A stretch of 35,721 nt of DNA, from positions 1 through 35,721 of the forward strand of contig JARGFZ010000027.1 of NCBI GenBank assembly GCA_029210965.1, given 5' to 3'. Origin of the DNA: a bacterium (lineage in GTDB: Bacteria; BMS3Abin14). A program made the translations under genes and the position numbers. Positions 32,452 to 35,471 of this stretch are shown piece by piece (the stretch's first letter is position 1; each line of letters begins with the position of its first letter). The notes beneath the pieces were generated by a model, which saw nothing but the letters and a program-made list of their open reading frames with translations, had not been told where the DNA came from and did no database searches.

Positions 32452-33076
32452 GTCAACACCTGAACGCAGAACACAGAACGCAGAACGCAGGAGAAAAATA
32501 AACCTTATTCCGGACATCTCCCATAGAGCGAAAATGCTAAAACCCAATGCTAAACAGCATGTTAGGCTATTGTGGTTAATAATCAACATTATATATCGAA
32601 AGACTGCTGTAGAGGGGAAAATTTTTTGACACAAAGACGCGAAGACACGGGGGCACGGTGTAAGAGCAGCATGGGCGCTTGGCAGGATGGGTGTAAAGGT
32701 CCGTGGCTAGTGATTCGTGATTAGTAAAATGGCTTAGATCAAGGATAAAAGGCCGTTTCAATCCTGTGTGACATTTTATAGTATTTAAAGCCTAAATCTA
32801 CTTGTTCGCATAAGTAACGTTATGTAAAGTTTTAGATTTGAACAATTACGCCGTGACAAGCTGTGTAACTCTGCGATGGTTACTGGTGATTACTTCTGCG
32901 GCCCATCTGCCTGCTCTGAGCCTGTTGAAGGGCGTTAAGGCTTTTGAACCCCGAGATCGCTTCGCATGCGTATCAGCTCCCACCTTCGCTAAAGCTATGA
33001 TGGGCAGGCGCGATGACAGCGTGGGAACCGTACTTTCCCCGTGTCTCCGCGTCACCGCGTCCTGTGATTTTTTAAC
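32452..33076. other. 625-base non-coding gap at the convergent junction of the plus- and minus-strand genes
   Basis: The gap holds GAACGCAGAACACAGAACGC words (32461-32490), an A/T-rich middle (about 32570-32640), GACGCGAAGACACGGGGGCA words (32635-32655) and GTGATTCGTGATTAG words (32707-32724). A GC-rich tail lies at 32880-33060 and carries an open frame on the plus strand. The frame lacks a ribosome site and its translation looks like low-complexity repeat text, so I do not call it a gene. No clear terminator serves the convergent genes. Confidence 0.5.
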
Positions 33077-34135
33077 CTACCGGCTCCCGGCTCCTGGATT
33101 CTGGCTCCTGACTTTCAAAACCCCTTCAAACGCCTCTCCACAGCTTGGGCAGTTGCCCTTCTCAGTCACGTTGACAGATTTTACCTTAAAACCAGATCGC
33201 TGAATAAGGACCTCTCCGCAGCTGAAACATTTCGTTTCATCACCCCTACCCGGGACATTTCCCGGATATACATATTTCAGGCCGGCCTCCTCCCCTATTT
33301 GACACGCTTTTTCAAGGGTTTTAACAGGAGTTGGGGGCGCATCCTGCAGTTTATAGGTAGGAAAGAACTTTGAAAGGTGCCAGGGGATCGAAGGATCAAC
33401 CGATGCTATGAAGGCCGCCATGAACTCCAGAGAGGCTCTGTCGTCGTTATATCCGGGAATTATGAGGGTTGTCACCTCGATCCAGACACCGGCCTTGTGG
33501 AGGGCTCTGATGGAATCAAGGACCGGCTGGAGGCCTGCCCCGCAGACTTTACGGTAATGCTCTTCTGAGGCCCCCTTGAGGTCCACATTGGCCGCATCAA
33601 GAAAGTCCCCGGCAAGGGCTGCCGATTCGTCCGACATGTATCCGTTGGTGACAAAAACGTTGGATAGGCCTTCTTTTGCGGCATGGACTGCACAGTCCCG
33701 TGCGAACTCCATGAAGATAGTCGGTTCGGTGTAGGTATAGGAAATGGACGAGCAACCAGCCCTGATCGCCTCGTTTACCACATCCGCTGGCGTTGAATCG
33801 TCACCGGGTATGGGATCTATCAGGGGTGCCAGGACGCTGATCTGGTAATTCTGACAGTGTCTGCAGGCCAGGTTGCAACCTGCGGTGGCGATAGAATAGG
33901 AAAGTGTTCCGGGCTGAAAGTGGTAGAGGGGTTTTTTTTCTATGGGGTCGACGTTCCTGGCCACCAGTTTGCCGTAAACCAGTGTATACAGGGTGCCGTC
34001 ACGGTTTTCGCGAACGCGGCAAATTCCCCTTTTCCCCTTCTTTATGGTGCAGTAATGGGCACATAGCCTGCACCTTGTACTGGAATCCGGGTTTTTGTCG
34101 TAAAGAATGGCTTCAAACTGGGATTGCTTCGACAT
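33077..34135 (-). CDS. amrS: AmmeMemoRadiSam-system radical SAM enzyme
   Basis: This radical SAM protein belongs to the family that co-occurs with AMMECR1 and Memo proteins; its substrate is not known. The N-terminal metal knuckle has C22, C25, C29 and C39, then TRENRDG-like text. The [4Fe-4S]/SAM motif is AGCNLACRHCQNY with C87, C91 and C94. SYTYTEPTIFMEFA and VDLKG follow in the barrel, and two CxxC pairs (CFSCGE and CPSCGE) form a C-terminal zinc ribbon. It is 352 aa. Relatives begin close to 'EAILY'; here the start MSKQSQ comes from a dispersed CATTGCGAGG...GAAGCAATCC repeat. The last residues VRSQNPGAGSR come from a GGAGCCGGGAGCCGG word run. AMMECR1 and Memo genes are not in the window. 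Confidence 0.9.
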   Translation of the reverse strand: MSKQSQFEAILYDKNPDSSTRCRLCAHYCTIKKGKRGICRVRENRDGTLYTLVYGKLVARNVDPIEKKPLYHFQPGTLSYSIATAGCNLACRHCQNYQISVLAPLIDPIPGDDSTPADVVNEAIRAGCSSISYTYTEPTIFMEFARDCAVHAAKEGLSNVFVTNGYMSDESAALAGDFLDAANVDLKGASEEHYRKVCGAGLQPVLDSIRALHKAGVWIEVTTLIIPGYNDDRASLEFMAAFIASVDPSIPWHLSKFFPTYKLQDAPPTPVKTLEKACQIGEEAGLKYVYPGNVPGRGDETKCFSCGEVLIQRSGFKVKSVNVTEKGNCPSCGEAFEGVLKVRSQNPGAGSR

Positions 34136-34156
34136 GATCTACGGCCTCGCAATGAC
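34121..34156 (-). repeat. CATTGCGAGG...GAAGCAATCC dispersed repeat at the amrS start
   Basis: Read on the minus strand: TCATTGCGAGG, a spacer CCGTAGATCATGTC, then GAAGCAATCC. The outer parts form ATTGC/GCAAT pairing. This sequence resembles a repeat commonly seen between genes in diverse bacterial genomes. Its GAGG could serve as the ribosome site, and the ATG lies nine bases later, inside the element. Confidence 0.65.
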
Positions 34157-34274
34157 AAGCCGGCCTGGATTCTGGTTTAACCAGTTCAGGGTCTCTGGTT
34201 CCTAGCTGCAAGGCACTAGGTCCTAAGTGCTATGTTTTTACTTCGACACCTCGATACCTGGATACAGCCTTACT

Positions 34275-35456
34275 TCAAGCCGTGGGATCGATAACTTGCT
34301 TGCACTGAGGGCAGCGTATGCGGACCTTCTTTTTCGAGTACAGGCGTTTGGCCTCAATAAACCCGGAGGCATCGCAGCCGGGACAGGTGATCCTGATCCT
34401 GGCCTCACGGTCCATGGCCATGGTTTGGTCCTGGCTGTCAGTTGAAACAAGAGGGACATCTTCCGCCGGGGACCGCGGGAGCACTACCTGGATTATATGG
34501 CTTCCAATAGTAATTTTGTCGCCGTCCTGGAGAACAAACTCCTTGGTGAAGTGATCGTTGACAAAAATCCCGTTAAGACTGTCAAGGTCTCTGACGCTTA
34601 CCCTCCCCTCCTTTTCCTCAATGACTGCATGCTGGCGGGATGCACCGGCATCTCCCAGTACAAGGTCGGCTTCGCTGCTTCGTCCGAGAATGAAGGGGAA
34701 GTGGTCCACGGTGACCCGCTTCAGTGTACGGACTTTGTCGCGAATAATGAGTTCCGGGAGGGGCTTTGTGAAGTATTTGTAAACGCCGCCGTGAAAATGG
34801 GCATCTCCCTCAAGGTAATCGGAAGCGGGAGTGGTGTTCATATCTTCGTAGATCCGAATTTGTGTCTGCTGCCCCCTGATCTGATAGACCTCAATTTTCT
34901 GAAAAAGATCCAGCCACTCCAGTCCCCCCGATGATTCGACGATCTGGTCGTAAAAGTACGCTTTCACCACCTTTCCCCCCTTGGCGAAAGCAAAGCTGAA
35001 CCTTCCATCCTGGACCAGTGCAACCAGAGCGTCTTTACGGCCCTCCATGAGGTCAACAACCTGGTTTTCGATGCGGACAAATTCCGCTGATCCCTGCGTC
35101 TCGGGGTGGCATTCCTGCAGAACCAGGAGGGACTTGATGAGAATGGGATCCGTTTTCAAAAAATAAAGACGGACCTTGGGATGCTGAGCAAGGTATACAA
35201 AGAAATCCCTGATCGTTGTTGATTGTATATCCTTGGGGCCCGAGAAAGTACCTGCTGCGTAGGGTTTGCGCTGGAAGATGAGGAGGTAGCGTCTTTGCTC
35301 AATGTTCTCTTCTGTTGTCACACAATAACCGAATTCGAAATCGGCCAGGTCCCCCTCCCCTTTCAGGATCGAATCGAAAAGCGCAGGGTCAGGTGCTACT
35401 TCCTCAAGCTCAATGGAACCGAAGGGAAACGGTATTAAGATATCCTGCCTACCCAT
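34275..35456 (-). CDS. FHA-domain protein with C-terminal zinc ribbon and uncharacterised N-terminal domain
   Basis: Residues 1-235 form a domain I do not recognise, mixed alpha/beta with RRYLLIFQRKPYAAGTFSG and VALVQDGRFSFAFAKGGKVVKAYFYD; the latter hints at a DUF4388/roadblock-like or stress-sensing fold, low confidence. A forkhead-associated phosphothreonine-binding domain spans about 246-327: FILGRSSEADLVLGDAGASRQHAVI, then DLDSLNGIFVN. A CPGC/CPQC pair at 358-361 and 382-385 makes a zinc ribbon. It is 393 aa, without signal peptide or membrane helix. ATG 35456 is chosen because AGGAG lies 7 nt upstream; a TTG at 35462 is less well placed. A perfect palindrome sits in the leader. It suggests Ser/Thr phosphorylation signalling, but no kinase gene is nearby. 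Confidence 0.85.
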   Translation of the reverse strand: MGRQDILIPFPFGSIELEEVAPDPALFDSILKGEGDLADFEFGYCVTTEENIEQRRYLLIFQRKPYAAGTFSGPKDIQSTTIRDFFVYLAQHPKVRLYFLKTDPILIKSLLVLQECHPETQGSAEFVRIENQVVDLMEGRKDALVALVQDGRFSFAFAKGGKVVKAYFYDQIVESSGGLEWLDLFQKIEVYQIRGQQTQIRIYEDMNTTPASDYLEGDAHFHGGVYKYFTKPLPELIIRDKVRTLKRVTVDHFPFILGRSSEADLVLGDAGASRQHAVIEEKEGRVSVRDLDSLNGIFVNDHFTKEFVLQDGDKITIGSHIIQVVLPRSPAEDVPLVSTDSQDQTMAMDREARIRITCPGCDASGFIEAKRLYSKKKVRIRCPQCKQVIDPTA

Positions 35457-35471
35457 ATTCAATCTCCTGGC

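Follow-up and report, generated by a model that had tools for sequence, protein, structure and literature searches.

It was concluded from sequence comparison that the amrS gene very probably received its start codon from a dispersed 33-base palindrome, and that a heptanucleotide array independently provided its stop codon and C-terminal tail. The gene lies in the window, that is, the whole analysed stretch of 35,721 nucleotides. The features discussed below are as follows.

33077..34135, minus strand: amrS, AmmeMemoRadiSam system radical SAM enzyme (TIGR04337; Pfam Radical_SAM)
33077..33113, minus strand: AGGAGCC-family heptanucleotide array, which encodes residues ~342-352 (VRSQNPGAGSR) and contains the TAG stop
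34122..34154 (strict), minus strand: dispersed palindromic element of the 33-bp class (CATTGCGAGGC-N10-GYCGAAGCAATC), from pattern search and consensus
34118..34135, minus strand: repeat-encoded N-terminus MSKQSQ, residues 1-6
34133..34135, minus strand: ATG start codon of amrS within the variable loop of the element
34139-34141, minus strand: in-frame TAG upstream of the ATG, also within the element (TAA in the sister species)
34145..34148, minus strand: candidate ribosome-binding word GAGG inside the left arm of the element, 9 nt before the ATG; putative role
34136..34274, minus strand: spacer of 139 nt between amrS and the upstream gene
34275..35462, minus strand: upstream gene with an FHA domain and a weak C-terminal zinc ribbon, from domain search and family comparison

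The amrS start and the palindromic element

The 352-aa product of amrS was assigned to the AmrS family by a score of 348.7 bits against TIGR04337, the curated cut-off being 220, and the profile match began at residue 14. When amrS of the two sister species was compared, 638 of 694 bases were identical at codon positions 1 and 2, and 237 of 347 at position 3; the gene looks functional and under purifying selection. The original prediction had placed the feature at 33077-34156. The gene itself spans 33077-34135, a small correction, and its overlap with the repeat held.

The minus strand across the start reads TGTCATTGCGAGGCCGTAGATC|ATGTCGAAGCAATCCCAGTTTGAAGCC. As had been claimed, the element (34122-34154) covers the ATG and the first codons, MSKQSQ is repeat-encoded, and GAGG lies nine bases before the ATG. 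The right-hand consensus of the element continues as GCAATC-CCGGTTT, hence Phe7 may be repeat-encoded too. The N-terminal peptides predicted for the repeat start in this species or its sister are (M)SKQSQFEAILYDK or (M)PKQSPFEAILYDK. No other ATG, GTG or TTG was present in the amrS frame before codon 58 (GTG58), a position past the first conserved cysteines, and a downstream standard start was rejected on this ground. Since an in-frame TAG precedes the ATG and the next standard codon is GTG58, the ATG of the repeat is the only standard start.

It is presumably this ATG and this GAGG that the cell uses. SD-like words were found before 99 of 213 sampled genes, compared with 38 of 213 control windows taken from within genes. 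A 9-nt spacer was recorded for 7 of the 99, which puts it at the long end of the range, yet it occurs. Six copies were folded and each gave a predicted hairpin; the z-score was below -1.8 in four, the copy of the window not being among these. The hairpin around the amrS ATG was weak (-5.5 kcal/mol, no better than shuffles; -8.2 kcal/mol for the copy in G001), and it might lower initiation.

The pattern CATTGCGAGG…GCAATC gave 40 strict copies in the 3.19 Mb genome G000, 22 forward and 18 reverse, and the reversed control pattern gave 0. It matched once in the window and never in 100 shuffles; a chance origin of the element was ruled out on both counts. Strict copies start with CATTGC and finish with GCAATC, as set by the search pattern itself. 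Most copies of the 33-base class had in common their arms and their flanks, TGT to the left and CCGGTTT to the right; the conserved flanks widen the amrS element to about 34115-34157. Some ten loop bases varied by copy. The loops differed between almost all copies and were kept between orthologous-looking ones (e.g., G000:C49 and G001:C449); it looks as though every insertion came with a loop of its own. The element was carried by each of the 11 further family genomes, and a domain-wide sample of 386 genomes had it in 86. It is REP-like in being a short imperfect palindrome with 40 dispersed copies, of which 39 lie clear of scored ORFs. The RAYT transposase profile PF01797 had two matches in G000; ATTGC…GCAAT did not occur within these two loci (L213, L214), so that the copy-flanked RAYT of REP systems was not found there and a link of the element to a neighbouring RAYT was dismissed. 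An Rfam search returned a sub-threshold lncRNA match only, and the words of the element led, by titles and abstracts of open-access papers, to unrelated subjects only.

Start donation by the element was rare. Only one of the 40 copies in G000 overlapped a predicted gene. When four genomes with 82 strict copies were taken together, overlap with a scored ORF occurred four times, namely with amrS twice, a 121-aa ORF in G001 and a weak antisense ORF in G006. ATG-bearing copies were located at 34 places in 14 genomes, of which 30 loci were fetched, giving 31 matches (one locus held two nested ones). Among these 31 loop-ATG copies, none but the orthologous pair at amrS clearly opened a conserved gene; three opened at least 90 codons, these being amrS twice and an ambiguous pilin-like ORF (L235; 201 aa), whose PilX_N match of 14.2 bits was weak and below the 25.5 cut-off. 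L235 was not accepted as a clear case, its frame staying open upstream. The 121-aa ORF of G001, ArsP_1-like (49 bits) and opened by a GTG in a 43-bp copy, was set aside as well, as it has internal starts. Start donation was an exceptional, single event, and this genome has no clear case besides amrS.

Relatives with and without the element

The sister species G001 encodes an AmrS 86% identical to that of the window. Its gene carries the same copy at the same place, and the ATG and frame of the repeat were kept although loop bases had changed (N-terminus MPKQSPFEAILYD). In the next relative, G002 (AmrS 75% identical), the element was absent at the amrS start, as it was in eight more family members. 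Eight of these nine (G002 and seven others) start at the position of Ser5, and one (G008) at -3. The expectation that relatives begin at or just before EAILY was thus borne out, one of them starting farther upstream. The N-terminal residues of repeat-free relatives differed from MSKQSQ, and in a comparison that covered the best 30 of 110 entries, with five duplicate loci skipped, the tails differed in all three genus members. A scan of all 110 amrS loci detected the element at the start only in the window (L031) and in L032/L061, which are one contig entered twice; in L099 it lay 365 bases upstream of amrS on the other strand. The amrS copy resembles the RPE repeats in that it overlaps a conserved gene in frame and is missing from relatives.

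The copy is present in both sisters and absent in G002 and the others, which points to its arrival once the lineage had diverged from G002 and while the two sister species were still one. In the simplest history, the repeat would have replaced the amrS start within that interval, and the proposal that it removed the native start and gave a new one is supported by the relatives with and without the copy. We infer the direction of change from the outgroups; an insertion would be the event behind it, and the G002 spacer looks different.

An ORF with a similar zinc-ribbon end precedes amrS in all 11 family genomes read. The spacer between the two genes was -4 to 14 nt in seven of 11 family members and longer in G001 (118 nt), G002 (132 nt) and G006 (98 nt). 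Since it is also long in G002 and G006, the growth of the spacer preceded the palindrome. The element was not found to be more conserved than its surroundings (31 of 33 versus 82 of 91 aligned spacer bases, with 37 gap columns). Third positions of the sisters (L031 vs L032) agreed at 28 of 30 in codons 1-30 and at about two thirds in codons 31-340. From the spacer through codon 30 the two species were unusually similar, their upstream genes were 92-99% identical by 90-base window, and a recombination breakpoint inside amrS is possible. Given such similarity, the age of the shared copy could be overestimated if the sisters have exchanged sequence.

Repeats at the N-termini of ORFs are usually dismissed as mis-annotation. 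It could likewise be argued here that the repeat merely lies upstream and that translation starts at the non-standard ATT10 in EAILY, MSKQSQ being an annotation artefact. ATT starts are very rare, and the absence of standard codons between codon 1 and GTG58 speaks against this reading, as does the sister, which retained the repeat ATG and its frame despite the loop changes. The profile match from residue 14 only and the relatives beginning just before EAILY would agree with it, and a passage of PMC3733652 warns that many N-terminal REPs are extragenic; on balance, an ATT10 start was considered unlikely. The other possibility was that nothing had been inserted and that ancestral upstream sequence drifted into resemblance. 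Only the dissimilar G002 spacer speaks for drift, when the match to the 33-bp class consensus includes both the arms and the flanks (TGT…CCNGTTT) and the 40 copies stand against none for the reversed pattern; the flank match brings this reading close to refuted. Replacement of the amrS start by the palindrome appears about as clear as sequence alone permits, because there is no other standard start and orthologues exist with and without the copy.

Heptanucleotide arrays and the amrS tail

A second dispersed repeat had been predicted at the 3' end of amrS. A repeat is present there, but of a different kind, a heptad array and not a palindrome. It reads AGTCAGG AGCCAGA ATCCAGG AGCCGGG AGCCGGT AG, and a period-7 run such as that at 33077-33113 was reached by none of 200 Markov shuffles. 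The tail VRSQNPGAGSR is repeat-encoded, as had been suggested, and the phenomenon proved broader, recurring on other genes. By sequence logic, an AGGAGCC array has no stop in any frame, and every frame yields the cyclic peptide RSQEPGA; translation would thus continue until a variant unit. The TAG of the array comes from such a variant, for example AGTAG.

The array word had 75 overlapping matches in G000 and one for the reversed pattern. The 75 were merged by hand into 52 places, of which 37 were intergenic, seven lay over the stop of a sense gene and eight were inside predicted ORFs; two of them, C1:207564 and C1:207599, are both at the GalT end, one counted as a stop and the other as inside. 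Genes were called by our own ORF and hexamer scoring, with no validated gene finder, and the "inside" arrays may reflect spurious ORFs. All seven stops inside AGGAGCC arrays were TAG, compared with 65 of 248 genes (p about 1e-4). Within 364 kb, four unrelated genes end in SSSQEPGAGSQ, NRSQEPESRSQ, RRSLEPGAGNQ and VRSQNPGAGSR; their owners are a PpiC-type gene, a GalT-type gene, a multihaem cytochrome and amrS. Orthologues ended where the tail begins in five of six read for GalT and in five of nine for PpiC; in the rest a clean end could not be read.

In 363,721 bp of the genome, N stretches excluded, 105 period-7 runs were counted. Of these, 79 were intergenic, 12 covered a predicted stop, 11 lay inside genes and three lay at starts. 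Among the other periods from 4 to 21, there were 25 runs at 8, 48 at the multiple 14 and 0-8 elsewhere, which makes period 7 clearly overrepresented. The units were diverse (58 different ones among 106 runs, one being an N run). Gene ends inside heptad arrays are fairly common. The broader claim that intergenic repeats shape gene ends held for the amrS start and for array-made stops; as a trend, start donation failed (one of 40 copies).

At amrS loci, period-7 runs numbered seven in 34 kb for nine family loci, one in 151 kb for 42 other bacteria and none in 126 kb for 33 archaeal loci. An array covered the amrS stop in all three genus members, with the units AGGAGCC, AGGGCGA and AGTCCAA; in G009, G003 and G007 it followed the stop, and in five other family genomes no significant period-7 run was found at the amrS stop. 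At the stop of the cytochrome gene, the unit was AGGAGCC here and AGTACCC in G002. The array position seems to outlast the unit, two genes being too few for proof. Two further G000 genes had an array that was absent in their clear G002 orthologues, few genes being comparable.

It was considered whether the shared C-terminal peptide might be a functional tag for degradation, localisation or binding that was spread by selection, in view of the nearly identical 10-residue end on four unrelated proteins. Such similarity follows from the DNA, since a heptad array gives one cyclic peptide in every frame; moreover, 37 of the 52 arrays are intergenic, orthologues lack the tail, and amrS of the sister and of G002 carry other tails. 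A tag was judged very unlikely. A more far-reaching version of the array origin is that the lineage re-cuts gene ends routinely, arrays of any unit being made at fixed places at or after stops. Dozens of genes would then gain stops or tails, and the palindromic start would be the 5' counterpart. The basis for fixed places is the array kept with differing units at the stops of amrS (three of three genus members) and of the cytochrome gene (two of two read in the genus), and this extension is put forward tentatively, as doubtful at present.

In the window, 22 period-7 runs were noted from 2776 to 33113, other periods being almost absent. Their units included TCCAAAG, TACACTC, CAGGTTC, TGGAACC, ATCTCAG and others, each array having its own. 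Nearly all were intergenic, many 2-15 nt past a stop codon. By eye, some arrays formed pairs of apparent reverse complements that bracket intergenic regions (7354/7917, 16280/16735, 22467/22540 and 9265/9412), one after the upstream gene and the other before the next start. A rarer period-8 class (25 runs in the sample) is represented by CCGCGTCA at 33039-33061, just downstream of amrS.

Proposed history and known repeat systems

We proposed that a spreading or mobile 33-base palindrome landed at the amrS start in the ancestor of both sister species, where its right arm would have displaced the native ATG. A chance ATG in the variable loop, in frame and nine bases past GAGG, would then have taken over initiation and lengthened the N-terminus by four codons. 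Independently, an intergenic heptad array, of a type common behind genes in the lineage, may have come to cover the amrS stop; the stop-free array would be read through until a variant unit AGTAG gives TAG, leaving a tail of ten or eleven residues. This sequence of steps was fitted to what was observed directly: the existence and location of the copies, their presence or absence in relatives and the matching tails elsewhere.

Re-cutting of gene ends by small repeats is already known from REP, RPE and RU elements. According to PMC3733652, REPs (GTAG and CGTC superfamilies) are palindromes of 20-40 bp that lie mostly between genes and in some cases overlap the end of an ORF; those of the GTAG type often supply a TAG stop to flanking ORFs, and slightly more than 10% of intragenic REPs lie at the coding end and more at the N-terminus. 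Most N-terminal REPs are doubted in section 15 of that paper, as translation may start downstream. In contrast to the REPs described there, amrS has no near standard downstream start, its orthologues with and without the copy document a replacement, and its tail comes from heptads and not from palindromes. GCGAGG, GCAATC and ATTGC at the start of a word are absent from the main text of PMC3733652. The Rickettsia palindromic elements (RPEs; Ogata et al. 2000, as cited in PMC2229807 and PMC3733652) are palindromic repeats lying in frame in conserved genes, and expression is reported there for some proteins that carry RPE-1 N-terminally. Their stated length is 105-146 bp, whereas the amrS element has 33 bp and supplies the start itself. 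In Delihas 2007 (PMC2759123), RU-1 removed a stop codon and extended the C-terminus of an amidase, and RU-2 makes up the N-terminal portion of a protein; RU-1, RU-2 and RU-3 are described as MITE-like units of 103-168 bp in enterobacteria, whereas the amrS tail comes from a 7-nt array.

Heptad arrays are described for Geobacter metallireducens (GGGACCG elements; PMC2700814), Xanthomonas/Nostoc (PMC4692102) and Beggiatoaceae (TAACTGA; PMC4679880). Those arrays are likewise short, mostly intergenic and in part over coding ends. The reports on them deal chiefly with one or a few units per genome, as against 58 units in 106 runs here, where a single array-encoded tail is also common to several genes. 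Searches of open-access papers on start donation, heptad arrays and tails returned, among the entries read, none that describes this palindrome as the source of a start codon. Three aspects are new: proof by comparison in the case of a start codon, the re-cutting of both ends of a single gene and an array-encoded tail that recurs. The SQEPGAGSQ-type tail indicates that one repeat family re-cuts the ends of unrelated conserved genes, and it is a marker usable in proteomics or genome annotation.

Some copies of the palindrome contained a repeat within a repeat, with a second CCCTGAGCTTGTCGAAGGG-type palindrome in the loop (G010:C8:167903, G005:C23:48300, G005:C41:57508, G009:C2:34761 and G001:C600:7392). 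The highest number of strict copies among the 386 sampled genomes, 454 (235 forward, 219 reverse), was recorded in the distant genome G073, mostly as a 22-base form in the places listed.
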